A DNA stretch of 64,000 bases. It comes from a bacterium SCSIO 12643 (GTDB taxonomy: Bacteria; Bacteroidota; Bacteroidia; Flavobacteriales_G; Salibacteraceae). The stretch is from assembly GCA_024398135.1 (NCBI GenBank), contig CP073750.1:868001-932000 (forward strand). The letters are read 5' to 3'. The notes beneath the pieces were generated by a model. That model was given only the letters and a program-made list of their open reading frames with translations. It did no database searches and was not told the origin of the DNA. Each line of letters opens with the position of its first letter. Position 1 is the first letter of the stretch. This document shows positions 22,733 through 44,881 of the stretch, in pieces. The position numbers were made by a program, and so were the translations under genes.

Positions 22733-25717
22733 ATGGCTAATTTTTCCTCTCAAAAACTACTTTGGGCAATTGCCCTGAATGCCTCTATTTCTGTATTCGC
22801 ACAAAATGGTCCCGGTGGTATCGGACATACTGACGGAGCAACCGATTTAAACTTATGGATTCGCTCTGGATACGGCCTCACTATTCCTTCAGGAAATAAT
22901 GTAAGTGACTGGGCTGATCAATCCGGGCACGCTAATCACGTATCTCAAGATACTACTTCATATCAACCACAACAATCCACAAACGCCATTAATGGATATA
23001 CTACTATCATTTTTGATGGAACTGATGATGTGATAACTACCGGTGCATTTTCATCGGCAGACACGGAATCTGCTTATTCTATTTTTACAGTTTGGAAATA
23101 TATTGGGAGCTATCCCAAACAAAGAGATGCCATTTTTGCATCAGCTGATACCTACTCCAACGGAACTGTCCAAATTTCCTCAACAGGAAATACTGCAGCA
23201 GATTCATTCAGCTGTGGAGGTAAACTTATAGCGGCCCATTCTCAGCTTTCGAATTATAATATTACATCTGTTACACGCTCATCTTCAAACACTATGAATT
23301 CATGGTTAAATGAAGCCTCTTCAACCTCTAAATCTATATCTGCGGCCAGGGCCACAGAATTTTATTTATATAAGATGGGAGTCAACAGAAACGGTGTTAA
23401 GTTTTTAAATGGAGAACTTGCAGAGACTATCGTATTCTACAAAGAAGTCTCCGAAATTGAACGAATTATCATTAATAATTACCTATCTGCTAAATTTGAT
23501 ATTGGACTTACTTCTAATGATTACTATACCCAGGATAATTCAGGCTCTGGAAACTTTGACCATCATGTAGCAGGAATAGGTCAGTCATCTGATGGGTCAT
23601 CACATTCCACTTCTAAGGGGAGTGGAATTGTTCAAATGAGTAATCCTTCCGACTTACAAAATGGAGAATTCTTATTTTGGGGAGAGGACACACAAAGTTC
23701 TTCCTATGGATTTACGACCACATCAGAGTATTATGAAAGGCAAAATAGCACCTGGCGAATCAGTAAACAAAATGATGTGGGCAGCGTTACAGTATCTGTA
23801 AATGCAGCAGATCTTGATTTGTCTGGAAAACAAAGTTGCGCAACACTTTATCTTGTGGTGAGTAATTCATCCACATTTTCAAGCAAAACCACATATGCAA
23901 TGAGTTTATCATCAGGGGTCTATTCAGTAAATAACGTTTCCTTCTCAGATGATGACTATTTTACGTTTGAATACTTTGATAAAGTTGTTATTGACGGCTC
24001 CTCATTCTATAATGGTTCAGGAACATCCAGTGCTCCCGGTACATCAGACGAATGTTACAAACTACTTGTTAAGAGTACAGCCGATGGCTCACTAGATATT
24101 TCTGAGAACGCAAAAGTGCGTGAAGTCGAAGTAGAATCCGGAGGAATTCTTGCTATTGATTCAAATACGTATCTATCAATTTCCAATTCAATTAATAATA
24201 ATGGTACGATCAACATTTGTGAAAACTCCTCTTTAATTCAAACTGGAACTGGCTCAGATAATAATTCTGGTACGGGAACATACAATGTTAAACGTGCAGG
24301 CAATAACTCTGCATACTACTATAACATTTGGTCTTCACCAATTCAATCTGCTCCATTATCATCGGTATTTAATAATTCCAACCCTTGTGACATATATGTA
24401 TTTGACAAAGATCTTCAAACCTGGAAATATGATTATACTGCTGGATATACAACAACATGTAATGGCAATAGTGTCACTTTTACTGCTTCAGATGTTATAT
24501 TGGGAGGAGACGGCAATATGGATATTGGAGGAGGATATTTTGTACCTGGAAATCCAACAGCTCTTAAAACCTATAATGGCACTATAAATAACGGAGACCT
24601 TCAAAAAGCGATATCTATCACTAATCTTGGTAATCCGGGAGGAACCGATTGGGCTGATGATGACTGGAACCTACTAGGGAATCCATATCCTTCTGCATTA
24701 AATGCCACTGCTTTCTGGAATGAAAATGCGGTGAATAATTCTAGAATCACTGACGCATTATATTTCTGGGATGAAGCAGACACAACTGGCGGATACAACC
24801 AAAATTCAGATTATGCCTCATGGAACCTATCCGGAGGCGTGAACTCAGGGAATTCATCAACCATTCCAGGTGGAAATATTGCAAGCGGTCAAGGTTTCTG
24901 GGTAGTCGCCAATGCCAATACGAATGTGGTTTTTAATAATAGCATGAGAACCAGTTCAAACTCTCAATTTTTTAAATCTCAAAACTTAGATCAACATAAT
25001 GCATGGATCAGTTTCACTTCTCCTTCCGGGTATCGAAACAACATCTTAATAGGCTACAATCAAAATACAACAGATTCGGTTGATGCGGGATACGATGCTC
25101 ATAAATTAGTCGGTAATGCCCATGTCAGATTTGCCTCTTATATTGGCACAGATGAATTTGTAATCCAATCAATAGCACCATTAAACATTGGTGATTCGAA
25201 GACCATTCCTATTGTGGTGTTTAGTGATGAATACGGCACGCATCATTTCAACGAATACAAAAGAGAGAACCTACCAAACAATGTCGAGATTTATCTAAAA
25301 GATAAATACCTTGGTCTCGAACATAATTTGGTTAATGGTCCTTATACTGTTGATTTAAACCCTAACACCGAATACAAAAGTCGATTTGAATTATTATTCA
25401 AATATAAAGTCCATCAATCCGGTGGAGGATCTGGTTCTAAAGGTGGCGGAACAGCAACTTCAATTGAAGATTATTATAATAATCATTTCGAATTAACAAC
25501 CGGATCAGGAATAATTACAATCTACCATCCAAATGGCATCACAGGTTATATAACTCTCACAGATATTTCAGGTAGAACTTTATACAAAAGTCAATATCAA
25601 TTAAAACAAAATAGTATTCAGGTTAATTGGAGTCATTTTATTAAAGGTATTTACTTCATTTCAGTTCAAAATGGGAGTCATAGAATTTACCTAAATCAAA
25701 TTGTTAAAAGTCAATAA
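22733..25717 (+). CDS. T9SS cargo protein 1 of the tandem array (LamG-like N-terminus)
   Basis: A 994-residue secreted protein. After a signal peptide (about 1-23, ending VFAQ) it has NGPGGIG...LNLWIRSG, the usual opening of a LamG/concanavalin-like domain in Bacteroidota surface proteins (about 25-250). From residue about 252 (YLSAKFDIGL, then DYYTQDNSGSG) begins the module shared with the next three genes, running to a Gly/Ser-rich linker near 893 (QSGGGSGSKGGGT). The last 75 residues are a T9SS type A sorting domain (ISGRTLYKSQ, KGIYFISVQ). Sorting domains direct export through the outer membrane and usually anchoring to surface polysaccharide. Ligand unknown. Confidence 0.88.
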   Translation: MANFSSQKLLWAIALNASISVFAQNGPGGIGHTDGATDLNLWIRSGYGLTIPSGNNVSDWADQSGHANHVSQDTTSYQPQQSTNAINGYTTIIFDGTDDVITTGAFSSADTESAYSIFTVWKYIGSYPKQRDAIFASADTYSNGTVQISSTGNTAADSFSCGGKLIAAHSQLSNYNITSVTRSSSNTMNSWLNEASSTSKSISAARATEFYLYKMGVNRNGVKFLNGELAETIVFYKEVSEIERIIINNYLSAKFDIGLTSNDYYTQDNSGSGNFDHHVAGIGQSSDGSSHSTSKGSGIVQMSNPSDLQNGEFLFWGEDTQSSSYGFTTTSEYYERQNSTWRISKQNDVGSVTVSVNAADLDLSGKQSCATLYLVVSNSSTFSSKTTYAMSLSSGVYSVNNVSFSDDDYFTFEYFDKVVIDGSSFYNGSGTSSAPGTSDECYKLLVKSTADGSLDISENAKVREVEVESGGILAIDSNTYLSISNSINNNGTINICENSSLIQTGTGSDNNSGTGTYNVKRAGNNSAYYYNIWSSPIQSAPLSSVFNNSNPCDIYVFDKDLQTWKYDYTAGYTTTCNGNSVTFTASDVILGGDGNMDIGGGYFVPGNPTALKTYNGTINNGDLQKAISITNLGNPGGTDWADDDWNLLGNPYPSALNATAFWNENAVNNSRITDALYFWDEADTTGGYNQNSDYASWNLSGGVNSGNSSTIPGGNIASGQGFWVVANANTNVVFNNSMRTSSNSQFFKSQNLDQHNAWISFTSPSGYRNNILIGYNQNTTDSVDAGYDAHKLVGNAHVRFASYIGTDEFVIQSIAPLNIGDSKTIPIVVFSDEYGTHHFNEYKRENLPNNVEIYLKDKYLGLEHNLVNGPYTVDLNPNTEYKSRFELLFKYKVHQSGGGSGSKGGGTATSIEDYYNNHFELTTGSGIITIYHPNGITGYITLTDISGRTLYKSQYQLKQNSIQVNWSHFIKGIYFISVQNGSHRIYLNQIVKSQ

Positions 25718-25879
25718 CTAAAACCTTAAAGACTAATGAAGCATGTTATATATCTGATGATTAGATCAGAACTAGATTCATTTCTATAAACTATTTAGTC
25801 ACGCTTCAAGCAAATTAAAAATAATAATTCAAATTATTTAACTATACAGTACATTTAGACCGTATACACCTCTTTTACA

Positions 25880-25887
25880 TAGTTTTG
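25880..25887 (+). promoter_or_regulatory. -7 promoter box of array gene 2 (TAGTTTTG)
   Basis: An exact TAnnTTTG match 60 bases before the ATG. The same octamer TAGTTTTG precedes array gene 3, also with a leader of about 60 bases. Array genes 1 and 2 are separated by 230 bases with only a short hairpin at 25753-25770. Confidence 0.5.
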
Positions 25888-25947
25888 GTTCCGCATATTC
25901 AATTTTAGATCATGCATATGAATTAATATTGATATAAACCGCAAACC

Positions 25948-28900
25948 ATGAACACTACTACTTCATTTAAGCTAATCGCATTCTTTTTGGCGATTTTCCC
26001 CGCTTTGTCATTTTCGCAAACTGTATTGGTTAGCGAAAGTTTTAATGGTTCTTCACTCCCATCCGGATGGACCAATAACGATCATGCCGGAACCGGTGAT
26101 GATTGGCAATTTAATGATCCGGGAAGCCGAAATATTTCAGCAGGAAACTTCTCTGGAAACTATGCCATTCTGGATAGTGATGAATACGGGACTTCATCTA
26201 GCCAAAACGCATCTCTGATCACTCCATCATTCGATGCTAGTCCTTATTCTACTATAACGTTAACTTTTGACCATCAATATAGAGATTATGATGGCCCGGA
26301 GTTTTGTAAAGTTCAGGTATACAATGGATCTTCATGGTCTACAATTGTGACATACGACATTGGTGACGAGAATTATTCAGGGGCTGATTTTGTGACATTG
26401 GATATTACCAGTGCGGTAAACGCAAGCTCAAATGCTAAAGTACGTTTTAGATATAAAGGTTCTTACGATTGGTGGTGGGCCATTGATAATGTTACCATTA
26501 CAGGAACAGAACCTGCGATTGTCGCTTCTCCCAAAGGACCTGGAGGTATTGGTTCTGATGACGGGACATCTGGTCTCGTTGCATGGTATACACCGAATGG
26601 GTTAAGAAATAGTTCAAATTCACTGCCTTCAGATGGACAATCTGTATCTACATGGGTAGATGAATCCGGTAACAATAAAACAATCTATAATAGCGGAAGT
26701 GCTACTTATCAAAGTGGTGCATCTGACTTAATAAATGGAAATGCCAAGCTTAGTGCATCTTCATTAAACAGACAATTTGTAACGTCTTCAAATATCACCG
26801 CTAAAACACTAATTGCTGTGAATGATCCAAAAAGCCGCAGTTACTTTGAGGCAGTTGCTGGATTTAATGGAGATAAAGGAATCCGAAGACCAAGTAGTAC
26901 GGATAACATTTGGCAGTACCCAGGTGGTGGGAATGGAACCAATAATGACACCTGGTCAACTGATGCTGGTGAGTCATATATAAATGGAGGTACAACAAAT
27001 GCTGGAAGTCATGGAAATTCACTCCATTTTGTATCTCAAACCAGACCTTCTACGCATACCAATAAATTTTATATTGGTGGGTATTACTCCGGTAGAAGCT
27101 TTACCGGAGATATTACTGAGGTCATCATATTCAACACAGATCTTAGTGACGTAGAAAAGATCATATTAGATAATTACCTTTCTGCAAAGTACGCTATTGC
27201 TCTTTCAGCTAACGATTATTATACACAGGATAATTCCGGATCAGGAAACTTCGATCATCATGTAGCTGGTATTGGTCGTGCAGCTGATGGATCACTTCAT
27301 AACAATTCTCAAGGTACCGGAATCGTTAAAATCAACAATCCTTCTGATCTCAACTTTGATGAATTCCTTTTCTGGGGTGAAAACACGCTAAACTCTTCTT
27401 ATGGATTCTCTACTTCTTCGGATTACACCGAAAGACAATCCAGCACCTGGAGAGTCAGTAAAAGAAATGACCTCGGTACAGTCTCTGTTTCTGTGGCTGC
27501 TACCGATCTCGATCTTACTGGAAAACAAAGCTGCGCCAATCTTTACCTTGTCGTAAGTAGCTCTTCTTCGTTCGCTTCAAAAACTTCCTATCCTATGACT
27601 TTAAGTTCTGGGGTTTATACCGCTGATAATGTTTCTTTCAATGATAACGACTACTTCACCTTCGAATACATCGATCAAATCGTTGTCGATAACTCTCAGT
27701 TCTACAATGGTGCTGGTACTTCCAGTGTACCTAACATTACCAATGCCTGTTATAAACTTCTTGTAAAAAGTTCTGCTACCGGTGCTCTTCCTATCTCAGA
27801 AAACGCTGAAGTTAGAGAAATCGAAGTAGAAGCTGGTGGAATACTTACCATCAACTCCGGTATCTATCTTTCTTTAGCTGGAGATATCGTAAATAATGGT
27901 ACCATTAACATCGAAGAAGAATCTTCCTTGATTCAAACTGGTGCTGGAACCGATAACAACTCCGGTGCAGGAGTCTATAATGTTAAACGTACGGGTAATA
28001 ATTCTCCATACATCTTCAACATTTGGTCCTCGCCTATCCAATCTGCTTCTTTGACTTCCGTCTTCTCTTCTGCTAATCCTTGTGACATCTTTGTATTTGA
28101 CAAAGACCTACAAGCATGGAAATATGATTTTGCAGCCGGATATTCTACTACTTGTAATGGAAACAGTGTCACCTTCGGTGCTTCTCATGTAATCTCCGGA
28201 GGGGATGGAATCATGGATGTTACTGGCGGATACTTTGTCCCTGGTGATCCAACTGCACTGAAAACTTACAACGGAACTATTAACAACGGAACACTTAATA
28301 AAGCTATCTCTACAACAACTTTAGGTAATCCGGGAGGAACTGACTGGGCAGATGATGACTGGAACCTACTTGGTAATCCTTATCCTTCTGCTTTAAGTGC
28401 CACCGCTTTCTGGAATGAAAATGCTGTGAGCAACTCCAGAATCACTGATGCATTATACTTCTGGGATGAAGCTGATACCACTGGGGGATATAATCAAAAC
28501 TCTGATTATGCTTCATGGAACCTCTCAGGTGGAGTTAACTCTGGTAACTCTGCGAAAGAACCTTCCGGGAACATTGCCAGTGGACAAGGGTTTTGGGTCG
28601 TTGCCAATGCCAATACAAATGTAGTATTCAATAACAGCATGAGAACTTACAACAACTCTCAGTTCTTTAAAACACAGCAACAGATCAACCAACACAATGC
28701 TTGGATTAGTTTTACTTCTCCTTCAAAATATCAGAACAACATTCTGGTAGGATACAATCAAACCACTACTGATGCTGAAGATTTGGGTTATGATGCACAC
28801 AAACTGGTGGGGAACTCTCATGTAAGATTTGCGTCTTACATCGGCACTGATGAATATGTCATTCAATCTGTCGCTCCTCTAAGTATTGGAGATTCTAAAG

Positions 28901-29409
28901 TTATTCCTCTGGTGGTATTCTCTGATGAATATGGTACACACCAGTTTGAAGAATACAAAAGAGAAAATCTTCCTAACAACTTTGAAATCTACATTAGAGA
29001 TAAATTCCTGGGGTTAGATCACAATCTCGCAAATGGTCCTTACAATGTTGATCTAAATCCAAATGTGGAATACAAAAGTCGTTTTGAATTGGTCTTCAAA
29101 TACAAAATGCAACAATCTGGTGGTGGCTCAGGATCTAAAGGTGGTGGTACTGTAACTTCTGTCGAAAAAAATATCGATCCGGATTTTAAAGTCTTACAAG
29201 ATCAAAATACCATTACCATCTCCCACCCAAATGGAATTAATGGAGATGTGACCATTATTGATCTTACTGGTAAAGTTCTATTCCAAAAGCAAAATGTGAA
29301 AAGCAACAATCTTCAGATTCAATGGCACAATTTTGCCGCTGGTTCTTACTTCATCAGTATCCAAAACAACAACCAAAGATCATTCTTTAAACAGATTATA
29401 AAAAACTAA
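25948..29409 (+). CDS. T9SS cargo protein 2 of the tandem array (choice-of-anchor plus LamG-like)
   Basis: A 1,153-residue secreted protein. A signal peptide (1-24) is followed by a beta-sandwich (about 25-190) with WTNNDHAGTGDDWQFNDPG and WWAIDNVTITGT, as in choice-of-anchor J / cleaved adhesin domains. A LamG-like domain follows (about 195-405) and then the shared module from residue 409 to the Gly/Ser linker near 1055 and the T9SS sorting domain. Bases 27172-28571 are identical to the next gene, while the two LamG-like domains are unrelated at the base level. This implies exchange of the N-terminal part or recent conversion of the C-terminal part. A surface adhesin or carbohydrate binder is inferred. 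Confidence 0.88.
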   Translation: MNTTTSFKLIAFFLAIFPALSFSQTVLVSESFNGSSLPSGWTNNDHAGTGDDWQFNDPGSRNISAGNFSGNYAILDSDEYGTSSSQNASLITPSFDASPYSTITLTFDHQYRDYDGPEFCKVQVYNGSSWSTIVTYDIGDENYSGADFVTLDITSAVNASSNAKVRFRYKGSYDWWWAIDNVTITGTEPAIVASPKGPGGIGSDDGTSGLVAWYTPNGLRNSSNSLPSDGQSVSTWVDESGNNKTIYNSGSATYQSGASDLINGNAKLSASSLNRQFVTSSNITAKTLIAVNDPKSRSYFEAVAGFNGDKGIRRPSSTDNIWQYPGGGNGTNNDTWSTDAGESYINGGTTNAGSHGNSLHFVSQTRPSTHTNKFYIGGYYSGRSFTGDITEVIIFNTDLSDVEKIILDNYLSAKYAIALSANDYYTQDNSGSGNFDHHVAGIGRAADGSLHNNSQGTGIVKINNPSDLNFDEFLFWGENTLNSSYGFSTSSDYTERQSSTWRVSKRNDLGTVSVSVAATDLDLTGKQSCANLYLVVSSSSSFASKTSYPMTLSSGVYTADNVSFNDNDYFTFEYIDQIVVDNSQFYNGAGTSSVPNITNACYKLLVKSSATGALPISENAEVREIEVEAGGILTINSGIYLSLAGDIVNNGTINIEEESSLIQTGAGTDNNSGAGVYNVKRTGNNSPYIFNIWSSPIQSASLTSVFSSANPCDIFVFDKDLQAWKYDFAAGYSTTCNGNSVTFGASHVISGGDGIMDVTGGYFVPGDPTALKTYNGTINNGTLNKAISTTTLGNPGGTDWADDDWNLLGNPYPSALSATAFWNENAVSNSRITDALYFWDEADTTGGYNQNSDYASWNLSGGVNSGNSAKEPSGNIASGQGFWVVANANTNVVFNNSMRTYNNSQFFKTQQQINQHNAWISFTSPSKYQNNILVGYNQTTTDAEDLGYDAHKLVGNSHVRFASYIGTDEYVIQSVAPLSIGDSKVIPLVVFSDEYGTHQFEEYKRENLPNNFEIYIRDKFLGLDHNLANGPYNVDLNPNVEYKSRFELVFKYKMQQSGGGSGSKGGGTVTSVEKNIDPDFKVLQDQNTITISHPNGINGDVTIIDLTGKVLFQKQNVKSNNLQIQWHNFAAGSYFISIQNNNQRSFFKQIIKN
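27172..28571 (+). repeat. 1,400-nt direct repeat, copy A
   Basis: Compared base by base with 30917-32316 (offset 3,745), this block shows no mismatch. The first differences are at 27171 on the left and 28572 on the right. It encodes the front two thirds of the shared module. Confidence 0.95.
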
Positions 29410-29420
29410 AAATAATAGTA

Positions 29421-29453
29421 AAAAAACGGCTGAAGCAATTTGGCCGTTTTTTT
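29421..29453 (+). terminator. Rho-independent terminator after array gene 2
   Basis: AAAAAACGGC pairs with GCCGTTTTTT, followed by further T residues, 11 bases after the stop codon. Confidence 0.85.
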
Positions 29454-29575
29454 ATTGAATTTTAATCAAGAATCATTTTTATTAAATAAAATATCACCCT
29501 AGAAATAGCGATTTCATTCACGATGCAATCTATTTAACTATTCGGTATATTATCAAACAAACTATGTTAATAATA

Positions 29576-29583
29576 TAGTTTTG
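29576..29583 (+). promoter_or_regulatory. -7 promoter box of array gene 3 (TAGTTTTG)
   Basis: An exact TAnnTTTG match 61 bases before the ATG, the same octamer and nearly the same distance as before array gene 2. With the terminator upstream, gene 3 appears to be its own unit. Confidence 0.5.
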
Positions 29584-29644
29584 ATTTTGTATATACTCTA
29601 TTCAATTAGTTAAATGAATAAATATTGCATAAGATCACACAAAT

Positions 29645-32600
29645 ATGAAAATCGCTACGCCTATTAAACTACTTTTATTTACATGTCTTTTTTTTCCTCT
29701 CCATGCAATTAGTCAAACGACTATATTGAATGAAAATTTTTCTGGAGGAAGTTTACCTTCCGGATGGACCAATACAGACCATGCCGGAACTGGTGATGTA
29801 TGGTTATTTAACGATCCTGACAACAGAAATATAAGCGCTGGAAACTTCTCCGGTGATTATGCTATTTTGGACAGTGATTATTATGGCAGTTCATCAAATC
29901 AGGATGCATCTTTAGCCACCCCTACATTTGATGCCAGTCCATACTCTACTGTTACTTTAAGTTTCGATCATCAATATAGAGATTATAGTTCTCCCGAATC
30001 TTGTGAAGTACAGGTATATAATGGTTCAAGCTGGACCACTGTAGTAAGTTATACTACCGGAGATGAAAACTACTCTGGTTCAGATTTAATCACTTTAGAT
30101 ATTACCTCAGCAACCAATGGAAGCTCAAACGCAAGAGTAAGATTCCGCTACTCAGGAAATTATGACTGGTGGTGGGCTATTGACAATGTCAATATCACAG
30201 GTACATCCCCGGATGTTGTTGCTTCGCCAAAAGGGCCGGGTGGAATTGGTTCTGATGATGGAACATCAGGATTAAAGCTATGGTTAGATGTGAATACTAT
30301 TTCAGGTACTAACAATTCAACTATTACCAATTGGACAGATGCTTCAGGGAATAATTTCAACTTTTCTGTAGGGAATGGAGCTACGTTTATTGAATCTGCA
30401 CAAAACGATTATCCTGCATTTAGATTCAATGGAACCTCTTCGTATTTCCAGCGCGCATTTACTTCAGATTTGACTCCTACTTCGTTTACCATTTTCTCAG
30501 CAAACAAAGTGAATTCCAGTAATAGATATAAATGTGTTATTTCTAATAGGGATGACCCTTCCGGAACAGCAACTGCAGGTTTCATATTATATTCCAGACC
30601 CAACACAAACTATTGGGATTTTTGGACCGGAAGATCTTCCGGAGCATGGCAAACAAACTCTGGTGGAACATCTACGGCAGGTAGTTGGGCCAGTCAGATG
30701 ATCAGATATGATGGAGCTACTAACAATAAAATATTAGATATCAATGGCTCATTTGATGCTTCAAATACGCATACAATGACACTAAATCCATCTCAGCCCA
30801 TTCGTGTTGGAGCCGGACGAAATGAATTCTCCCCTGATTACTATTTTAATGGTGACATTGGTGAAATCATCATGTTCAACACCGTATTGAGTGAGGTAGA
30901 AGAAATTATCATTAACAATTACCTTTCTGCAAAGTACGCTATTGCTCTTTCAGCTAACGATTATTATACACAGGATAATTCCGGATCAGGAAACTTCGAT
31001 CATCATGTAGCTGGTATTGGTCGTGCAGCTGATGGATCACTTCATAACAATTCTCAAGGTACCGGAATCGTTAAAATCAACAATCCTTCTGATCTCAACT
31101 TTGATGAATTCCTTTTCTGGGGTGAAAACACGCTAAACTCTTCTTATGGATTCTCTACTTCTTCGGATTACACCGAAAGACAATCCAGCACCTGGAGAGT
31201 CAGTAAAAGAAATGACCTCGGTACAGTCTCTGTTTCTGTGGCTGCTACCGATCTCGATCTTACTGGAAAACAAAGCTGCGCCAATCTTTACCTTGTCGTA
31301 AGTAGCTCTTCTTCGTTCGCTTCAAAAACTTCCTATCCTATGACTTTAAGTTCTGGGGTTTATACCGCTGATAATGTTTCTTTCAATGATAACGACTACT
31401 TCACCTTCGAATACATCGATCAAATCGTTGTCGATAACTCTCAGTTCTACAATGGTGCTGGTACTTCCAGTGTACCTAACATTACCAATGCCTGTTATAA
31501 ACTTCTTGTAAAAAGTTCTGCTACCGGTGCTCTTCCTATCTCAGAAAACGCTGAAGTTAGAGAAATCGAAGTAGAAGCTGGTGGAATACTTACCATCAAC
31601 TCCGGTATCTATCTTTCTTTAGCTGGAGATATCGTAAATAATGGTACCATTAACATCGAAGAAGAATCTTCCTTGATTCAAACTGGTGCTGGAACCGATA
31701 ACAACTCCGGTGCAGGAGTCTATAATGTTAAACGTACGGGTAATAATTCTCCATACATCTTCAACATTTGGTCCTCGCCTATCCAATCTGCTTCTTTGAC
31801 TTCCGTCTTCTCTTCTGCTAATCCTTGTGACATCTTTGTATTTGACAAAGACCTACAAGCATGGAAATATGATTTTGCAGCCGGATATTCTACTACTTGT
31901 AATGGAAACAGTGTCACCTTCGGTGCTTCTCATGTAATCTCCGGAGGGGATGGAATCATGGATGTTACTGGCGGATACTTTGTCCCTGGTGATCCAACTG
32001 CACTGAAAACTTACAACGGAACTATTAACAACGGAACACTTAATAAAGCTATCTCTACAACAACTTTAGGTAATCCGGGAGGAACTGACTGGGCAGATGA
32101 TGACTGGAACCTACTTGGTAATCCTTATCCTTCTGCTTTAAGTGCCACCGCTTTCTGGAATGAAAATGCTGTGAGCAACTCCAGAATCACTGATGCATTA
32201 TACTTCTGGGATGAAGCTGATACCACTGGGGGATATAATCAAAACTCTGATTATGCTTCATGGAACCTCTCAGGTGGAGTTAACTCTGGTAACTCTGCGA
32301 AAGAACCTTCCGGGAATATTGCCAGTGGACAAGGGTTTTGGGTCGTTGCCAATGCCAATACAAATGTAGTATTCAATAACAGCATGAGAACTTACAACAA
32401 CTCTCAGTTCTTTAAAACACAGCAACAGATCAACCAACACAATGCTTGGATTAGTTTTACTTCTCCTTCAAAATATCAGAACAACATTCTGGTAGGATAC
32501 AATCAAACCACTACTGATGCTGAAGATTTGGGTTATGATGCACACAAACTGGTGGGGAACTCTCATGTAAGATTTGCGTCTTACATCGGCACTGATGAAT

Positions 32601-33154
32601 ATGTCATTCAATCTGTCGCTCCTCTAAGTATTGGAGATTCTAAAGTTATTCCTCTGGTGGTATTCTCTGATGAATATGGCACTCACCAGTTTGAAGAATA
32701 CAAAAGAGAAAATCTCCCAAACAACTTTGAAATCTACATTAGAGATAAATTTCTGGGGTTAGATCACAATCTGGCAAATGGTCCTTACAATGTTGATCTA
32801 AATCCAAATGTAGAATACAAAAGTCGTTTTGAGTTGGTCTTCAAATACAAAATGCAACAATCTGGTGGTGGCTCAGGATCTAAAGGTGGTGGTACTGTAA
32901 CTTCTGTCGAAAAAAATATCGATCCGGATTTTAAAGTCTTACAAGATCAAAATACAATTACAATCTCCCACCCGAATGGAATCAATGGAGATGTAACTAT
33001 CATTGATATCACTGGTAAGGTTCTATTCCAAAAGCAAAATGTGAAAAGTAACAATCTTCAGATTCAATGGCACAATTTTGCCGCTGGTTCTTACTTTATC
33101 AGTATCCAAAACAACAACCAAAGATCATTTTTTAAACAAATCATAAAACCTTAA
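29645..33154 (+). CDS. T9SS cargo protein 3 of the tandem array (choice-of-anchor plus a different LamG-like)
   Basis: A 1,169-residue secreted protein with the same plan as its left neighbour: signal peptide (1-23), choice-of-anchor J-like sandwich (about 25-190) clearly homologous to that of gene 2, a different LamG-like domain (about 200-415), then the shared module from residue 425, Gly/Ser linker near 1070 and T9SS sorting domain. The module is base-identical to gene 2 over 1,400 nt and then shows about two dozen mostly third-position differences up to the stop. The conserved protein but drifting codons at the 3' end indicate that only the central tract was recently homogenised. Confidence 0.88.
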   Translation: MKIATPIKLLLFTCLFFPLHAISQTTILNENFSGGSLPSGWTNTDHAGTGDVWLFNDPDNRNISAGNFSGDYAILDSDYYGSSSNQDASLATPTFDASPYSTVTLSFDHQYRDYSSPESCEVQVYNGSSWTTVVSYTTGDENYSGSDLITLDITSATNGSSNARVRFRYSGNYDWWWAIDNVNITGTSPDVVASPKGPGGIGSDDGTSGLKLWLDVNTISGTNNSTITNWTDASGNNFNFSVGNGATFIESAQNDYPAFRFNGTSSYFQRAFTSDLTPTSFTIFSANKVNSSNRYKCVISNRDDPSGTATAGFILYSRPNTNYWDFWTGRSSGAWQTNSGGTSTAGSWASQMIRYDGATNNKILDINGSFDASNTHTMTLNPSQPIRVGAGRNEFSPDYYFNGDIGEIIMFNTVLSEVEEIIINNYLSAKYAIALSANDYYTQDNSGSGNFDHHVAGIGRAADGSLHNNSQGTGIVKINNPSDLNFDEFLFWGENTLNSSYGFSTSSDYTERQSSTWRVSKRNDLGTVSVSVAATDLDLTGKQSCANLYLVVSSSSSFASKTSYPMTLSSGVYTADNVSFNDNDYFTFEYIDQIVVDNSQFYNGAGTSSVPNITNACYKLLVKSSATGALPISENAEVREIEVEAGGILTINSGIYLSLAGDIVNNGTINIEEESSLIQTGAGTDNNSGAGVYNVKRTGNNSPYIFNIWSSPIQSASLTSVFSSANPCDIFVFDKDLQAWKYDFAAGYSTTCNGNSVTFGASHVISGGDGIMDVTGGYFVPGDPTALKTYNGTINNGTLNKAISTTTLGNPGGTDWADDDWNLLGNPYPSALSATAFWNENAVSNSRITDALYFWDEADTTGGYNQNSDYASWNLSGGVNSGNSAKEPSGNIASGQGFWVVANANTNVVFNNSMRTYNNSQFFKTQQQINQHNAWISFTSPSKYQNNILVGYNQTTTDAEDLGYDAHKLVGNSHVRFASYIGTDEYVIQSVAPLSIGDSKVIPLVVFSDEYGTHQFEEYKRENLPNNFEIYIRDKFLGLDHNLANGPYNVDLNPNVEYKSRFELVFKYKMQQSGGGSGSKGGGTVTSVEKNIDPDFKVLQDQNTITISHPNGINGDVTIIDITGKVLFQKQNVKSNNLQIQWHNFAAGSYFISIQNNNQRSFFKQIIKP
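30917..32316 (+). repeat. 1,400-nt direct repeat, copy B
   Basis: Identical to 27172-28571. The left edge is at the junction between the LamG-like domain and the shared module; the right edge is inside the module, where the two genes start to differ again at synonymous positions. Confidence 0.95.
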
Positions 33155-36201: not shown

Positions 36202-36210
36202 TTAATAGAA

Positions 36211-36239
36211 AAAAGACCTTCAAATGAAGGTCTTTTTTT
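36211..36239 (+). terminator. Rho-independent terminator after array gene 4
   Basis: AAAAGACCTTC pairs perfectly with GAAGGTCTTTT around a four-base loop, followed by T residues. Confidence 0.92.
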
Positions 36240-36410
36240 ATGCCCAAAATCTATAATCGACTTACCTCGACTCCTCTCATCCCTGATCATGTATTTTTAA
36301 CTATAATTCAATTCATTTCGATAGAAATTCAATAGTATCAAGGGTTTGTAAGAAAACTTTCAACCTTTTTCAATATTGAGTAATTCAGCCCAATTCGTTA
36401 TGCAACTCAC

Positions 36411-36418
36411 TACATTTG
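36411..36418 (+). promoter_or_regulatory. -7 promoter box of the giant array gene (TACATTTG)
   Basis: An exact TAnnTTTG match 66 bases before the ATG at 36485. Confidence 0.55.
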
Positions 36419-36484
36419 GACAATGGCTCTCCACTTTTTGGGCTCATTTTGAACAAAAAAGTCACACGTATTTAACACACAGAT

Positions 36485-39400
36485 ATGAAAAACACACTAC
36501 TGCTATTCACCGTAATTTCCCTCTTTTTTATATCAAACCTGAACGCAGCAAACCGCTACTGGATTGCTACCTCAGGAAGTAATTGGAACAACACCAATAA
36601 CTGGTCTACGTCAAGTGGTGGATCAGGAGGAGCATCGGTTCCTACTATAGGAGATCGCGTATACTTTGATCTAAGTGGTCCGGGTAATTGTACTTTAGAT
36701 ATTCCGGTTACAGTTGATGGGATCACCATGACCGCCAATTATTCCGGCACTCTAGAACTTGCTGGTTTTAGTTTCAATCCAACAGTTTCAGGTTCCGAAC
36801 ATTGTTATTTCCGTGGAGGGACAATCACAGACACACCTGGAACCTCATCTGTTTCTTTCACTACTACTGGTATTAGCCATTTTAGCGGAACCACATTTAA
36901 TGCGCCTATCAATATCGTTGCTGGTAGAGTACGATTTAGTGGTGGTACTTTCAACAACCCGGTGACTGTAGAAGACAATGGGTCATCTTCAACAACTGGT
37001 GCAGGTGGTTGTACGTTCAATTCAACATTAAAGGTAACCAATTCTGGTACCAGTTATTTCTTAATGGGACAAACTAATCCTGATATTTTTAATGATAACG
37101 TCACTCTAATTAATACGAGTACCAGCCGTATTCGTATCGCTTACGCTTCTGCTGGAAACCAATTCAATGGAAACATCATTATTGGATCTACGGGAGGTAG
37201 TGGTATCTATATTGGCGAAAATGGAGGACAATCTACTCTGGCTTCAACCAAAATCATTTCAATTGACGCAGGCGGCTTTACTACAGGAGATTTAAGATTA
37301 TACAATTTTGTTCAATCTGGTGCAACTGCTCAAACTATTACACTTTCTGATTCTGCAAGAATCAGGACCTATTCTGGAACTGTATTCAACGGTAATGTAA
37401 ATATCACTGCTCCTAGGATTGTCTTAAATGCAACAACTTTTTCTGGAACATCTCAATTCGATAAAATCGGCTCTGGAGATGATTACTCAGGTGGAGGTAA
37501 TACATTTTCAGGAAATTCTACGATTAACAATAGCAGCTCTTCCAGATTTGTTTTTGGAAATGGGAATTCTGACACTTTCAGCTCCAACCTTATTGTAAAC
37601 AACTCAGGCAGTAGCCAAACTTACATTGCACACAATAGTGCAGGGAACATCATCAATGGTAACTTAACGGTAAATAATACCTCTTCTTCCGGGTCTGGAA
37701 ATTATGTTTATATATCTCAAAATTCAGCGTCTACATTAACAGTTAATGGCACATCTACTTTCAATAATTTAACCTCTTCTTCTAATGGTAGAATTTATAT
37801 TGGTGACAACGGAGACATTACATTTAATGATGCAGTAACTCTAAACAACAGCGCAACCGGAACCACAGGATATATATTCCTCGCTAACGGCTCAAATTCT
37901 CAAGTCTCCATTACAGGCACTACCAATATCACCAATAATGGAACAAGCACCACCAAACAGATTTTTGCAGGTAATCAAGGAGATGTTACGTTCAATGGTC
38001 CTTTAAATGTGACTAACAACTCTGGGGCAAACAACTCTGATATTATTTTAAGTGAAGGTTCAAACTCTAGTAATATCTATAATGATAATATCGTTATTTC
38101 TGCAACACATAGTAATTCTGATGGTATTCGTTTCGGTAGAAACGGAGGTACCGGAACTTTAGCAAATACGAAAACTATAACAATTGGAGGCTCAGGTTTT
38201 GTATCAGGAGAATTAAGATTAAGAAATTTCACCCAAACGGGTTCCACACCACAATCTTTAACTATAACAGGCTCTGCATTACTATACTGTCAAGATGCTT
38301 CTTTTGGTGGCAATGTGGTTTTTACAGCTCCTAGAATCTTAACACGAGGTACAACATATAGTGGAACAACAACGCTTGAAAAAACAGGAGCGACATCTGA
38401 CGCTAGTGTTGGGGGGAATACATTCGTTGGAAATACAGAATTAAAAAATAGCGGATCATCATATCTTCTCATGGGAAATGGTCAGGATGATAACTTCCAC
38501 TCAAACCTGATTTTAAATAATACCGGAACAAGTCATATTTACCTGGCATATAACAGTCCGGGTAATACTATTGACGGGACATTAACGATAAACAATACTT
38601 CTTCTGGTTCTTCTTCAAATATCTATTTGGCATCATCTAGTTCCAGTGTATTATCAGTCGCAGGAGTTACTAATATTTCGAATACCTCTTCTGCTACTTC
38701 CAGTAATATCTATGTTGCAAGTAGTGGAAAAATATCATTTTCTGATAACGTTAATATCACCAACAATTCAACCGGTAGCACTGGACAGATTATTATTTGT
38801 AATGACTCCAGTTCATCTATCTCATTCAGTAATCCAGTAACAATAAGTAACAATGGTGCTGGTACTACGAAACGAATTTATATAGGCAACCATGGTGATG
38901 TTACTTTTAACGGCACCTTAGATATAACCAATAACTCTAGTGCTTCGAACTCTGAAATCTATTTAAATCACAGAGCCAACAGCAGCAATGTCTATAATGA
39001 TAATATCACTGTTGAGTCCACAAACGCCTCATGTGATGGAATTTGTTTCGGAGACAATACCGGAACGGGGACATTAGCAAGTACTAAAACAATAACTGTA
39101 GGCGGCTCTGGTTTCATATCGGGAAGACTTCTTTTTAGAAACTTCACTCAGGTAGGATCTACCGCACAAAACATCACATTAACGGGAACAGGGTTCTTAT
39201 ATAATTACAATTCAAGTTTTGGAGGCAATGTTACTTTCAAAGCTCCAAGATTTAACACCCGTGGAACCACTTATAGCGGCACTGTTCACCTTGAAAAAAC
39301 AGGAGGAATTGGTGATGACTATTCGGACGGTGGAAATATCTTCTCAGGAAATGCAACTCTTATAAACAGTGGTAGTAGAGCATTGATATTTGGTAACGGA

Positions 39401-42400
39401 ACATTAGATACTTTTTCTGCAAATGTTGCTCTTACTAACTCTGGAACCAGTTCATTATATTTTGCCAGATCTGGTGCCGGACACTCGGTAGCTGGGAATT
39501 TAAATATTACTAATTCTGCTACAGGATCAGGTACCAGTTATATCTTAGTTTGTAATCAGTCCTCAGCAACATTAAGTGTTGGAGGAAATGTAAACATGAT
39601 TTCTAATGGCTCTGCTAATCAACTAAGAACCTACTTTGCTGACAATGGAAGTGCTACAGTTACCGGTAACTTTAACGTTGAAAACTCTGGTTCTGGTTCT
39701 TACTCTGTCTCGATGCTCTCAAATACCAGTACGTCATCGTTGACTATAAATGGGAACACAAATATTATCAATAACAACAATGCCTCAAACAGAAATAGAG
39801 TTTTTCTTGGCAACTATGGAGATATCATTTTCAATGGCACATTAAACATTGAAAATTATGCAGGATCCCCAGATTCTGAAGTCTACTGTAACAACCAGGC
39901 TAACAGTAGCAATCAATACAATGACAATATTACAGTTAGCTCTAAGCATGTTTCCTGCGATGGAATCTTATTCGGTAATAGCGGAGGTTCTGGCATATTG
40001 GCCAATACAAAGTCTATTACCATTCCTGGTACTGATATTGCGAACTTCATTGGGGGACAGCTTTTATTTAGAAACTTTACTCAAACCGGCACAACTCCTC
40101 ATTCATTTGAATTAGCATCTACGGCATCATATATCTACAATCGCGACTCTAACTGGGGGGGTAATGTAAACTTTAAGTCTCCTCGTACTTATATGCGAAA
40201 TACTACGTTTAATGGCACTTCATACATTGAAAAGACAGGAGCTTCGACTGACGACAGTTATGGTGGCAACACTTTTATTGGCAACACTGAAATTGTACTG
40301 AATAACAACGTTGGAACCGGTGGATTAACAATCTCTAATAGCGCATCAAGTTCATTTGGTGCTAATGTTATCATCAATAATAAAGGTGCCTTTAGTAATG
40401 TTCTATTGGCCAATGCTGCCGGAACGTATACGATTGGAGGTAACCTAACACTTCTTAATGAATCTACAGGAACTGGCTCACAACAATTGTATTTATCAAA
40501 CAACAATTCAACAATTATTAATGTTACAGGTAACGTTACTGTAAGTAATTCTTCTTCAAGCACAAGTGGTATTCATAACATATACCTCTCAAACAAAGGA
40601 TTTGTAAATATCACTGGGAATTTAACAGCTGATAACTCTGGATTGAATGGCGTTTCAAAGAACATCCAAATCGGTAATCAAGGCGACCTAACTATTGGAG
40701 GAAACTTAACAATGACCAATACTTCTACAGCTAGTACAGCTCAGTTTATTGTGGGTTATTCCTCAAGTTCAGCTGTAACTATCGGTGGCAATACCTCTCT
40801 TACTAATAATGGATCGGGTTCGAACAAGCAATGCTATTTAGGAAATTACGGAGATGTTACTTTTAATGGAGACCTGGATATTACGAATAACTCGTCTGCC
40901 TCATACTCTGAAATATACTTAAACTATAGATCTTCAAGTGCCAATCAGTTTAACGGTAACATTACTTTAAAATCAACCCATACTTCATGTGATGGCTTCT
41001 TATTCGGAGCAAACGGAGGTATAGCAACACTAGCTGCCTCCAAAACCATATCAATTCCCGGAGTAGATATTGCTAACTTTATTGGAGGAACCATTAACTT
41101 TAGAAATTTCACTCAACTGGGTAACACACCACAATCTTTAGAATTAGCTTCAACAGCAACGTATATTAGACATCAAGACTGCGATTGGGGAGGAAATGTG
41201 ATTTTCAAATCTCCAAGTTTCATTACCAATAATTCTACCTATAGAGGTAGTGCATATTTTGAAAAAACTGGATCTACACATGATGTAAGTGGAGGAGGTA
41301 ATACCATAATTGGGAATACAGAACTTAAAAACACAGGCACTGGATATTTTCTAATGGGGAATGGTACAGCTGATGACTTTCAGGCTAATCTGGTCATGAA
41401 CAACAATAGCTCTCATAACATGTATATCGCATACAATAGTCCTGGAAATATGATTGGTGGAAACCTTACTATCAATCATAATTCCCCAAGCTCAAATACG
41501 TATACATATGTTTCCAACGCAACAAACTCAAATATCACTATATCTGGGTCTACTACTTTGAATAACAATGCAGCTGGTAGTATAGGATATATTGTTCTTG
41601 GAGATAATGGTGATGTGACTTTAAATGGTAGTCTAAATATCAATAATAATGGATCAACCGTTAATGGTCATGTATTAGTCGCAAACAACACCAATTCACA
41701 AGTTACAGTCAATGGAACTTCTTCTATAATAAACTCAAGTGCAGGCACCTATAAGCGAATTTACCTTGGAAATAGTGGAGACCTCATCTTTAATGGAGAT
41801 CTCAACATCACAAATAATTCAAATGCAACAAATTCAGAAATTTACTGCAACTACAATTCTAACAGTTCTAATCAATACAATGGTAATATTTCCATTGCCA
41901 GTACACATTCTTTATCGGATGGAATTCGCTTTGGACAAAACGGAGGAAGTGGAACCTTGGCTAATTCTAAAAGCATTAGCATTGGGGGAGGCGGTTTTAT
42001 TGCCGGACAATTATGGTTTAGAAACTTCAATCAAAGTGGAAACACTTCTCAAAATCTAATTCTTACCGGTACTGGGTATTTATACATAAGAAATGCAGAA
42101 TGGAATGGAATTATTGACTTTAGAGCTCCTAGAGTGTTCACTAGAAACTCTACTTATAATAATGTAACATCTTTGGAGAAAACCGGTGCAAATAATGATT
42201 CATCAACCGGAGGGAATACGTTCAATGATGATGTAGTATTTAAGAATTCTGGGGCGTCATATTTTATGCCTGCTAATGGTCAAGGTAATGATTTCAATGG
42301 CAATGTTACTTATATTAAAACAGGTTCTGGTTTAATGTATCCTTCATATAATTCCGCAAGTACTTATGCTAAAAATATTACTGTTAACTCATCAACTACA

Positions 42401-44881
42401 GTGAGATTTGGTGCCGCAGGTAATGGTCGTACGATTTTTGATGGTAATGCTGCACAGAGTATTAATATAATTGGAGGAACACCAACACCTGAATTTAGAG
42501 ATATCCAAACGAGCAATACTAGCTCAGATATCACTCTTAACACTCCAATCATTATCCTTAAAGAACTGGATTTGGATCATGGTAATATTATTACTACCTC
42601 GAGTAATGTCATTTATATGAATGATAACACGACTGTTTCCTCAGTATCGAATAGTGCATATATAGATGGACCAATAGTTAAAATTGGAAATGATGCTTTT
42701 ACATTCCCAACAGGAAAAGATGGCTATTACGCTCCAATTACTATGAGTAAACCTAGTTCTTCAAGCTCAAGATTTGAAGCTGAATACAAGCATACCTCTC
42801 CTCAGACCGATGGATTTGACACAACAGCCATATCTTCTGGTCTTGATCATATATCTAACTATGAATATTGGATTTTAAATCGTTTGGCAGGATCAAATAA
42901 CGTAAAAGCTACAATTGGCTGGAATAGTACCAGAAGTGGTCATATTGGTTCTGGAACCAGATGTGATCTCAGAGTAGCCAGATGGAACGGGACCAAATGG
43001 GTTAATGAAGGGAACGGTGGTGTTACAGGAAACGCTACATCCGGAACAATAATTACCGGAACTAGTGAAGACTGTACAAATTCAACTAATATTACTTCCT
43101 GGACAAATGATTACCCAATAACCATGGCTATTGATAGCAACTACATTACCTGGGATGGAAGTGCATATGATGGCGGCAGTGGATCAGGAAATGCTCCTGA
43201 TAATTCAGATGCTGGACGTGTTCTAAAGGTCTACGGTTCTGGAGCATCAATTTCTTCAGATGCTTCTTTAGCTCAAATTATTGTAACAGGCACAGGAGAA
43301 CTCACAATTAATAGTGGAGTAACTGTAACTGTAAGTGAAAAGGTAAATAATAACGGTGTTATTGAAATTGAAAACAACGGTTCTTTGTTACAAACAAATA
43401 CTGGTGCAAATGAAAACTTAGGTTCAGGGACTTACAAGGTAAGACGCGAAGGCAATAATTTTGCTAATTCATATAATATCTGGTCCTCACCTATTCAAAA
43501 TGCATCCTTAACATCTACATTCCCAACAACAAACCCATGTGACATTTGGCTATTTGATCATAACAATCAATCCTGGAGTTATGATTATGCTGTTGGTTAT
43601 TCTACTACTTGTTATGGAAACCCTGTAACATTTACCGCTGCTAATGTAATTGCTGGTGGTGACGGTATTATGGATGTAGCAAGAGGATATTTTGTACCAG
43701 GAGCGGCTTCGTCAACACGTGAATACGATGGTAAAGTTAATAATGGAGATATCACTAAACCAGTTGTTACAACTTCTTTAGGAAACAATCCTAGTTGGGA
43801 TCAGGATGATTGGAACCTGTTGGGCAATCCATATCCAAGTGCATTAAATGCTACCGCGTTCTGGAACGAAAATGCCGTTAATAATTCTAGAATTACAGAC
43901 GCTATTTACTTCTGGGATGGAGGAGATACTTCGGCTGGATACAACCAACATTCCGATTATGCTTCATGGAATGCACTAGGTGGTGTTAACTCAGGAAACT
44001 CAGCTACCATTCCATCCGGACATATTGCAAGTGGACAAGGGTTTTGGGTATATGCCAGCTCAAACTCAAATGTTGTCTTCAACAACAGCATGAGATCTGG
44101 AAACAACAACCAGTATTTTAAAACGGAAGCACAAACAAATAACCACCTGGCATGGATTAGTGTAACATCCCCTCAAAATTACAGGAACAATATTCTAATT
44201 GGATATAATGCAAATACAACTGATTCTGTAGATCATGGATACGATGCGCATAAATTCGTAGGTAGTTCTCATATTCGATTTGCCTCTATAATAGGTAATG
44301 AAGAGTTTTCTATTCAAGGAATTGAGGCTCTGGAAATTGGAGATTCTAAAGTTATTCCATTGGCTTTATTCACTGCCGATTCAGGTCTTCATACTTTTGA
44401 AAAATACAAAACGGAGAACCTTCCTGTAAGCATTAAAATATATATCCGCGACATAAGCACTGGAGATGTTCAAGAAATTACACATAATAGTTATACTGTG
44501 TCTCTTGCTGGCAATGTCGAATACTTAAATCGCTTTGAACTTATCTTTAAAAATGAGATTGGTTCTACCGGTGGAGGAAATTCAGATAAAGGGAACCCAA
44601 ATAACGGAGACACAACAGTAACCAGTATTTCTGATGTTGATCAAAATGCAAATTACTCATTACTTAGAGAGAATAACAGTTATATACTGTCTCATCAAAG
44701 TGGAATCAATGGAGATGTAAAAGTTATCGATGTTACAGGTAAAGTAATCTGGACCCAAACCAACATTACCGGAAATACTAAGATTAGAATTGATTTAGAG
44801 GCTATCAGCTCAGGTATTTACTTTATCAATGTAATTTCTAATAACGAAAGAAAATATCACTCTAAGATTATTAAAAACTAA
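36485..44881 (+). CDS. Giant T9SS repeat protein 5 of the tandem array (2,798 aa)
   Basis: Signal peptide about 1-21. The mature start ANRYWIATSGSNWNNTNNWS is the opening of a domain common on large Bacteroidota surface proteins. About 250-1,935 consists of six long repeats (305-345 residues), each holding several 27-29 residue sub-repeats of the form VTFNGxLxITNNSxxxNSxIYL, rich in Asn, Ser, Thr and Gly, as expected of a right-handed beta-helix. A further beta region (about 2,000-2,200) leads into a shortened version of the shared module (from about 2,220), a GGGNSDKGN linker near 2,692 and the T9SS sorting domain. It resembles a very long adhesin or stalk. No catalytic motif is visible. Confidence 0.88.
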   Translation: MKNTLLLFTVISLFFISNLNAANRYWIATSGSNWNNTNNWSTSSGGSGGASVPTIGDRVYFDLSGPGNCTLDIPVTVDGITMTANYSGTLELAGFSFNPTVSGSEHCYFRGGTITDTPGTSSVSFTTTGISHFSGTTFNAPINIVAGRVRFSGGTFNNPVTVEDNGSSSTTGAGGCTFNSTLKVTNSGTSYFLMGQTNPDIFNDNVTLINTSTSRIRIAYASAGNQFNGNIIIGSTGGSGIYIGENGGQSTLASTKIISIDAGGFTTGDLRLYNFVQSGATAQTITLSDSARIRTYSGTVFNGNVNITAPRIVLNATTFSGTSQFDKIGSGDDYSGGGNTFSGNSTINNSSSSRFVFGNGNSDTFSSNLIVNNSGSSQTYIAHNSAGNIINGNLTVNNTSSSGSGNYVYISQNSASTLTVNGTSTFNNLTSSSNGRIYIGDNGDITFNDAVTLNNSATGTTGYIFLANGSNSQVSITGTTNITNNGTSTTKQIFAGNQGDVTFNGPLNVTNNSGANNSDIILSEGSNSSNIYNDNIVISATHSNSDGIRFGRNGGTGTLANTKTITIGGSGFVSGELRLRNFTQTGSTPQSLTITGSALLYCQDASFGGNVVFTAPRILTRGTTYSGTTTLEKTGATSDASVGGNTFVGNTELKNSGSSYLLMGNGQDDNFHSNLILNNTGTSHIYLAYNSPGNTIDGTLTINNTSSGSSSNIYLASSSSSVLSVAGVTNISNTSSATSSNIYVASSGKISFSDNVNITNNSTGSTGQIIICNDSSSSISFSNPVTISNNGAGTTKRIYIGNHGDVTFNGTLDITNNSSASNSEIYLNHRANSSNVYNDNITVESTNASCDGICFGDNTGTGTLASTKTITVGGSGFISGRLLFRNFTQVGSTAQNITLTGTGFLYNYNSSFGGNVTFKAPRFNTRGTTYSGTVHLEKTGGIGDDYSDGGNIFSGNATLINSGSRALIFGNGTLDTFSANVALTNSGTSSLYFARSGAGHSVAGNLNITNSATGSGTSYILVCNQSSATLSVGGNVNMISNGSANQLRTYFADNGSATVTGNFNVENSGSGSYSVSMLSNTSTSSLTINGNTNIINNNNASNRNRVFLGNYGDIIFNGTLNIENYAGSPDSEVYCNNQANSSNQYNDNITVSSKHVSCDGILFGNSGGSGILANTKSITIPGTDIANFIGGQLLFRNFTQTGTTPHSFELASTASYIYNRDSNWGGNVNFKSPRTYMRNTTFNGTSYIEKTGASTDDSYGGNTFIGNTEIVLNNNVGTGGLTISNSASSSFGANVIINNKGAFSNVLLANAAGTYTIGGNLTLLNESTGTGSQQLYLSNNNSTIINVTGNVTVSNSSSSTSGIHNIYLSNKGFVNITGNLTADNSGLNGVSKNIQIGNQGDLTIGGNLTMTNTSTASTAQFIVGYSSSSAVTIGGNTSLTNNGSGSNKQCYLGNYGDVTFNGDLDITNNSSASYSEIYLNYRSSSANQFNGNITLKSTHTSCDGFLFGANGGIATLAASKTISIPGVDIANFIGGTINFRNFTQLGNTPQSLELASTATYIRHQDCDWGGNVIFKSPSFITNNSTYRGSAYFEKTGSTHDVSGGGNTIIGNTELKNTGTGYFLMGNGTADDFQANLVMNNNSSHNMYIAYNSPGNMIGGNLTINHNSPSSNTYTYVSNATNSNITISGSTTLNNNAAGSIGYIVLGDNGDVTLNGSLNINNNGSTVNGHVLVANNTNSQVTVNGTSSIINSSAGTYKRIYLGNSGDLIFNGDLNITNNSNATNSEIYCNYNSNSSNQYNGNISIASTHSLSDGIRFGQNGGSGTLANSKSISIGGGGFIAGQLWFRNFNQSGNTSQNLILTGTGYLYIRNAEWNGIIDFRAPRVFTRNSTYNNVTSLEKTGANNDSSTGGNTFNDDVVFKNSGASYFMPANGQGNDFNGNVTYIKTGSGLMYPSYNSASTYAKNITVNSSTTVRFGAAGNGRTIFDGNAAQSINIIGGTPTPEFRDIQTSNTSSDITLNTPIIILKELDLDHGNIITTSSNVIYMNDNTTVSSVSNSAYIDGPIVKIGNDAFTFPTGKDGYYAPITMSKPSSSSSRFEAEYKHTSPQTDGFDTTAISSGLDHISNYEYWILNRLAGSNNVKATIGWNSTRSGHIGSGTRCDLRVARWNGTKWVNEGNGGVTGNATSGTIITGTSEDCTNSTNITSWTNDYPITMAIDSNYITWDGSAYDGGSGSGNAPDNSDAGRVLKVYGSGASISSDASLAQIIVTGTGELTINSGVTVTVSEKVNNNGVIEIENNGSLLQTNTGANENLGSGTYKVRREGNNFANSYNIWSSPIQNASLTSTFPTTNPCDIWLFDHNNQSWSYDYAVGYSTTCYGNPVTFTAANVIAGGDGIMDVARGYFVPGAASSTREYDGKVNNGDITKPVVTTSLGNNPSWDQDDWNLLGNPYPSALNATAFWNENAVNNSRITDAIYFWDGGDTSAGYNQHSDYASWNALGGVNSGNSATIPSGHIASGQGFWVYASSNSNVVFNNSMRSGNNNQYFKTEAQTNNHLAWISVTSPQNYRNNILIGYNANTTDSVDHGYDAHKFVGSSHIRFASIIGNEEFSIQGIEALEIGDSKVIPLALFTADSGLHTFEKYKTENLPVSIKIYIRDISTGDVQEITHNSYTVSLAGNVEYLNRFELIFKNEIGSTGGGNSDKGNPNNGDTTVTSISDVDQNANYSLLRENNSYILSHQSGINGDVKVIDVTGKVIWTQTNITGNTKIRIDLEAISSGIYFINVISNNERKYHSKIIKN
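37247..42290 (+). repeat. Six coding super-repeats in the giant gene
   Basis: Each unit contains the landmark TKTI(T/S)(I/V)GG, then FRNFTQ, a GGNV segment, an APR segment, Y(S/N)G, EKTG, GGNTF and a block of sub-repeats. The landmark codons start at 37247, 38168, 39083, 40007, 41039 and 41966, giving spacings of 921, 915, 924, 1032 and 927 bases. Units 4 and 5 carry an extra IANFIGG segment, so they form a sub-pair. Base-level identity is low, indicating old duplication. Confidence 0.9.

Follow-up and report, generated by a model that had tools for sequence, protein, structure and literature searches.

Probable gene conversion of a shared RemA-type module behind old, distinct heads in a tandem array of putative T9SS adhesins

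The five tandem genes described here, found in a window of 64,000 nucleotides from contig CP073750.1 of bacterium SCSIO 12643, are in our judgement probably RemA-like type A T9SS adhesins in which each genome shows concerted evolution of the C-terminal module (through conversion between neighbouring genes in the recent cases), and in which the heads are distinct lineages of long standing, with gains and losses.

Layout of the array and parts of its genes

The comparison covers three genomes of the genus, one per species. Throughout, A1-A5 denote the window genes 1-5, B the array of genome G001 (contigs C15 and C103), C the array of genome G002 (contig C1), Ax an unlinked copy at 2.80 Mb in the window's own genome, and O and P genes from two further genera in the family (G014 and G012, respectively). 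Five complete ORFs, all on the plus strand, occupy positions 22733-44881, and each of them ends in a common module followed by a type A T9SS sorting domain. The array and its surroundings are as follows:

22176..22520, plus strand: rplT (L20), left border of the array in the window genome and in G001, and located at a contig end in G002
22545-22570: terminator-like hairpin after rplT
22733..25717, plus strand: gene 1 (A1, 994 aa), with signal-like N-terminus, LamG-like head (aa 26-255), RemA-type module (from aa 248), Gly/Ser linker and type A T9SS sorting domain (aa 925-992)
25880..25887, plus strand: candidate Bacteroidota -7 element TAGTTTTG, 68 nt upstream of gene 2 (weak, by consensus only)
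25948..29409, plus strand: gene 2 (A2, 1153 aa), with CAJ-like domain (aa 25-185), LamG-like head (aa 197-415), RemA-type module (aa 408-1056), linker and sorting domain
29416..29457, plus strand: terminator-like hairpin after gene 2 (19 pairs)
29645..33154, plus strand: gene 3 (A3, 1169 aa), with CAJ-like domain, LamG-like head (aa 197-431), a module identical in protein to that of gene 2, linker and sorting domain
33217..36201, plus strand: gene 4 (A4, 994 aa), with LamG-like head (aa 27-256), RemA-type module, linker and sorting domain
36485..44881, plus strand: gene 5 (A5, 2798 aa), with giant repetitive N-terminal part, diverged RemA-type module and sorting domain
45934..46860, minus strand: fatty-acid hydroxylase, right-hand neighbour, also found on the array contigs of G001 and G002

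Por_Secre_tail scored above the Pfam cut-off at the C-terminus of all five genes, and the TIGR04183 cut-off was passed by genes 1-4 (hmmscan) and by the region of gene 5 (genome search). A Gly/Ser linker and a homologous C-terminal module are present in every one of the five, and the window genes have hydrophobic, signal-like N-termini (judged by eye). The common C-terminal plan of five consecutive plus-strand genes, described in an earlier note on this DNA, is thereby confirmed, as are the differing parts in front of it: LamG-like in genes 1 and 4, CAJ plus LamG-like in genes 2 and 3, and giant in gene 5. The LamG/ConA-like jellyroll exceeded the Pfam cut-off only in heads of relatives (B3, 9e-12; C1, 1e-9); the head of gene 2 stayed below threshold, and the LamG-like label of genes 1, 3 and 4 stands for BLAST homology within the family, to the heads of relatives. 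The CAJ-type domain of genes 2 and 3 gives a marginal match to Pfam Cleaved_Adhesin, and its two copies (26059..26573, plus strand, in gene 2 and 29756-30270 in gene 3) are 71.6% identical in nucleotides. Within the N-terminal part of gene 5 (window 36485-43100) there are diverged internal repeats (65-70% nt).

Concerning expression, the TAGTTTTG motif recurs at 29576 before gene 3, and TACATTTG lies at 36411 before gene 5, both as candidate -7 elements (again weak and by consensus only). The sigma-70 and strict Bacteroidota promoter scans gave no excess, with the full consensus absent. Gene 4 is possibly co-transcribed with gene 3, from which it is separated by a 62 bp gap.

The unannotated module can now be tied to RemA. 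Its profile matches residues 907-1434 of F. johnsoniae RemA (E 1.8e-53) and also RemZ (E 4.8e-53), in the C-terminal 530 residues, and genes 2 and 5 match RemA/RemZ singly as well. RemA, a minor adhesin of gliding that bears a lectin part and a type A CTD, makes use of PorV and has been seen in immobile, released and mobile forms (PMC12618676, PMC10202324), and RemZ is a RemA homologue trapped in the translocon (PMC10994853). When full-length gene 2 is compared with RemA, the match is confined to gene 2 residues 618-1140; the N-terminal and lectin parts of RemA are not shared by the window proteins, and the head profile found no match among solved structures. Because the match is partial in this way, and the head profile has no solved counterpart, the window genes are best regarded as carrying a RemA-type tail and not as RemA orthologs. 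Structures predicted for the module and for the head of gene 2 were of low confidence (pLDDT 50 and 60), and fold matches were used solely for the sorting domain, which resembles the CTDs of RemZ, RemA and RgpB. SprA is present in the genome, and a GldJ homologue appears as two stretches, each of which alone is below the cut-off.

A search with the module found arrays in both same-genus genomes, each closing with a giant gene; the gene counts are 4+1 in A, 4+1 in B (with one gene over two contigs) and at least 3+1 in C. A plasmid search with the same module gave no match. On contig C103 of G001, the front of a CAJ plus LamG gene lies ~270 nt past rplT and is broken off at the contig end, at the same module stretch where the first C15 gene starts, and we infer that the two pieces are a single gene split by the assembly. 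In G002, rplT and the first array gene lie at two different contig ends. With rplT so placed on the left and the fatty-acid hydroxylase on the array contigs of both relatives, the array occupies one genomic place in all three genomes.

Two histories within the same genes

In the self-comparison of the window, genes 2 and 3 are 98.0% identical over 2,305 nt (27100-29403 against 30845-33148), whereas all other pairs among genes 1-4 reach 72.5-73.5% nt, with mostly saturated dS, and the module of gene 5 is 68-70% identical (nt) to the other modules. Two exact tracts lie within this stretch:

27172..28571, plus strand: exact 1,400-nt tract of gene 2, identical to 30917..32316 (plus strand) of gene 3 and starting at the head/module junction
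28573..28934, plus strand: second exact run of gene 2, 362 nt, identical to 32318-32679 of gene 3

A third exact run of this pair spans 122 nt. For 2,250 nt at 73.3% identity, a longest exact run of ~22 nt would be expected (maximum of 44 in 2,000 simulations), and the permutation P is 2e-4, which is the floor, both for A2/A3 and for B2/B3. In steps of 90 nt, A2/A3 identity is mostly 0.6-0.74 in the CAJ-like domain and 0.37-0.5 in the LamG-like head, rises to 1.00 from the head/module junction and is 0.90 at the gene end. The dS values follow the same course, being saturated in the CAJ-like domain, 0-0.01 across most of the module, and then 0.09 and 0.30 toward the end of the gene, and the heads are unalignable at base level. 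The linker and sorting domain are 48-58% identical (aa) when gene 1 or 2 is compared with gene 4; the homogenised part is the middle module, not the anchoring signal. By the alignment that the earlier note recommended, the base-level homogenisation that it put forward for the constant part therefore holds for the module of genes 2 and 3, and does not extend to the other pairs (genes 1 and 4 are ~73% to the rest), to the sorting domain or to gene 5. The CAJ-domain tree did not resolve, so that our claim of conversion is kept to the module.

A separate case was found in G001, where B2 and B3 share an exact 1,004-nt run. On either side of this run identity drops, reaching 0.34-0.57 within the head and 0.39-0.43 at the gene end. 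In both A2/A3 and B2/B3, a bounded tract of near-zero dS thus lies between paralogs that are saturated outside it. Such a patch, bounded on both sides within homologous sequence and with unrelated or saturated outer parts, is characteristic of non-reciprocal conversion (or a double crossover) and not of duplication or of a single crossover carrying the head. For the A2/A3 tract, a whole-gene duplication or a single unequal crossover was discarded, as the heads and the upstream and downstream flanks all differ. No recent tract is present in A1, A4 or the C genes, and their within-species module grouping may come from older conversion. The array paralog Ax (2803042-2806032) is unlinked, is 64% identical (aa) to the module of gene 2 and has a lower-dS stretch against gene 4 (dS 0.81). 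Clustering was also found for A4/Ax (permutation P 0.001), a hint of an older exchange between gene 4 and Ax over 1.9 Mb.

The heads tell a different history from the modules. Orthologous heads can be recognised between species (A2-C3, 65% aa; A3-B1, 57%; B0-C1, 71%), and the head of B3 pairs with those of O2 (52% aa) and P2 (49%), which belong to other genera. The head tree supports A2+C3, A3+B1, B0+C1 and B3+O2+P2, and the AU test on heads rejected A2+A3 (p 4.5e-6), B0+B1 (3e-8) and B2+B3 (0.002). The module tree groups A1-A4 with Ax, B2 with B3 and B0 with B1, and for modules the AU test rejected A3+B1 (2.8e-8), A2+C3 (5e-7) and B3+O2 (2e-46). By these tests, paralogs group by species inside the tract and by orthology outside it, which is the mark of concerted evolution, and the heads of genes 2 and 3 diverged before the species split. 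The giants A5, B5 and C5 cluster in the module tree (support 93-94, not starred) and so behave as plain orthologs, gene 5 standing apart from the genes that are homogenised. The order of head types is A1, A2 (=C3), A3 (=B1), A4 in A; B0 (=C1), B1 (=A3), B2, B3 in B; and C1 (=B0), C2, C3 (=A2) in C. A single ancestral head order with gains and losses accounts for all three.

The array itself is real, and it is not a lone case, since 3'-end sharing between neighbours was observed in several other T9SS arrays of the same genome. The genome has at least 150 sorting domains and, among the matches listed, 40 same-strand neighbour pairs within 6 kb (14.6 expected). Among 152 T9SS genes, 26 pairs are 80% or more identical over a 3' end of at least 150 nt, and in 24 pairs both genes lie on the same strand and within 16 kb. 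Genes with unrelated fronts share their last 1,004 nt at 96% (2005551/2007830) or 231 nt at 94% (3085776/3087117), and among six genes at 352781-358157 pairs of differing front type share ~210 nt at 85-93%. Adjacency alone is no proof of conversion in these other arrays, because tandem duplication also sets relatives side by side. At 480707-485108 there are whole-gene duplicates, not 3'-only sharing, and in a cross-species test of two other arrays the relatives carry too few copies.

Some details of these loci can be added. The mismatches of the pair at 2005551-2009722 lie in clustered patches, and at 3085777-3088457 a second T9SS gene copy, apparently broken, stands behind an intact neighbour. 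At 352781-358157 the six small T9SS genes follow one another directly; their fronts belong to at least two unrelated types, and their last 68 residues are nearly identical, a tail without match in the two same-genus genomes. At 1083977-1101411, front types apparently alternate along five tandem T9SS genes, the pattern that duplication of a two-gene unit would leave.

Alternative explanations

The earlier note had read the locus as a reservoir for diversifying surface binding, with recombination in the constant part exchanging heads from gene to gene. The strong conflict between head and module trees would also be expected from head transplantation, and there is turnover of heads between species (A1, A4, B2 and C2 have no close same-genus ortholog among the array genes read). 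Nevertheless, identity also falls off at the 3' side of both recent tracts, which are hence bounded patches instead of head-carrying crossovers; a single ancestral order suffices for the heads of A, B and C; and every gene of the window array is complete, none being a silent cassette. Recombination does act, on the shared C-terminal part and not by exchange of N-termini: the head of gene 2 and that of gene 3 each have a clear ortholog, in a different relative, and the trees conflict because the module behind each head was replaced. The same-genus genomes do not carry the five genes one-to-one with uniform divergence, the outcome that the earlier note had named as refuting its reading; head types vary and modules group within species, without N-terminal swaps. 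What the data give is a tail homogenised next to long-lived heads, some of them gained or lost, and the shuffling reservoir finds no support in the between-species data (three genomes); head swapping is in our judgement improbable, though among strains it may still occur. Two related candidates were discarded. Antigenic variation from silent cassettes is out, every window gene being complete with a start and signal-like N-terminus, and DNA-inversion phase variation, which calls for inverted repeats and a nearby site-specific recombinase, was dropped when neither convincing invertible repeats nor a tyrosine recombinase (the type searched) was found near the array.

Conversion between neighbours within one genome has also to be weighed against import, by which DNA of a related strain would have replaced the module in two genes through allelic exchange. 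Surface proteins of P. gingivalis do diversify by allelic exchange between strains (PMC5266723), and import and within-genome copying leave similar tracts, but import would have to replace the module twice from the same donor, and this in both species, and the near-identical tails are confined to neighbours on one strand (24 of 26 pairs); we therefore consider it unlikely. Tandem duplication and divergence, with the tail kept by protein-level selection alone, could draw on binding heads of tandem paralogs diverging faster than their stalks. Selection on protein leaves synonymous differences, yet these are nearly absent from most of the module of genes 2 and 3, and the heads of these genes separated before the species did; plain duplication is refuted for genes 2/3 and B2/B3, may still explain the likeness among genes 1, 2 and 4, and as a general account is hardly credible. 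Since a single genome sequence was at hand, assembly or polishing might have rendered two similar tails identical; the sequence is one 4.1-Mb contig, an independent case exists in G001, mismatches are graded at the tract ends, and further arrays of the same genome stand at 85-96% identity, all of which makes an artefact very improbable.

Proposed roles and comparison with known systems

In the mechanism that we favour, the C-terminal module undergoes concerted evolution within each genome, with gene conversion between neighbouring genes behind the recent cases, and the heads are old separate lineages that descended with the locus, with gains and losses along the way. Conversion would halt at the head because the heads are too different (~30% aa) to pair. 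Judging from sequence, the array is likely a surface adhesin set presenting different heads on a common stalk. Different heads may bind different surface polysaccharides or particles, and the module, as the stalk that presents them, might act together with PorV and the sorting domain, and possibly also with the gliding machinery, one module under different heads being tolerated or favoured; both the binding targets and a part in gliding are suggested here by homology. As a broader and rather doubtful extension, Bacteroidota may generally convert the C-terminal stalk from neighbour to neighbour, keeping T9SS adhesin tails interchangeable, so that new heads could be recruited at the head/module junction onto a pre-tuned tail, with this array and at least three others in the genome as instances.

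Nature has recorded in this array where a T9SS adhesin may differ and where it stays common. Full-length trees of such proteins blend two histories, and the module that is now linked to RemA occurs in T9SS proteins of several Flavobacteriia genera.

The closest relatives in protein are RemA and RemZ (Fjoh_0803) of F. johnsoniae, with homologous C-terminal 530 residues and a type A T9SS sorting domain, and SprA and a GldJ-like gene are present in the genome studied here. A lectin-type part is known from RemA, whereas the window heads are LamG-like or a giant repeat and differ from RemA's N-terminal part; RemA acts in gliding, which for the window proteins is a possible role. Rhs proteins (PMC2935791) likewise join a constant to an exchangeable part, but there the C-terminus is displaced; in the window array it is the N-terminus that differs, and no displacement was seen.

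The claim of the earlier note that no described system has this layout was too strong, as close analogues exist in the S. aureus lpl/esaG loci and in the T9SS gingipains and haemagglutinins of P. gingivalis. P. gingivalis surface proteins, T9SS cargo included, undergo domain rearrangement and allelic exchange, with gene conversion suggested by the authors; the gingipain/haemagglutinin family also consists of T9SS surface proteins, but its internal adhesin domains are rearranged, without a tandem array bearing one shared tail (PMC5266723). In the titles and abstracts of a partial paper collection, no report of this layout for T9SS proteins was found. Recombination of tandem paralogs via conserved blocks is described for S. 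aureus lpl and T7SS immunity genes (PMC9484751). The lpl/esaG loci (Tsuru and Kobayashi 2008, cited in PMC9484751) are likewise tandem surface or secretion-linked paralogs in which neighbours recombine via a conserved part, short conserved blocks guiding crossovers that move gene halves and copy number varying among strains. In the window array, by contrast, long internal patches are converted, the heads keep their order, and the products are T9SS cargo of Bacteroidota; the process is known elsewhere, and its setting in a T9SS family is apparently new.
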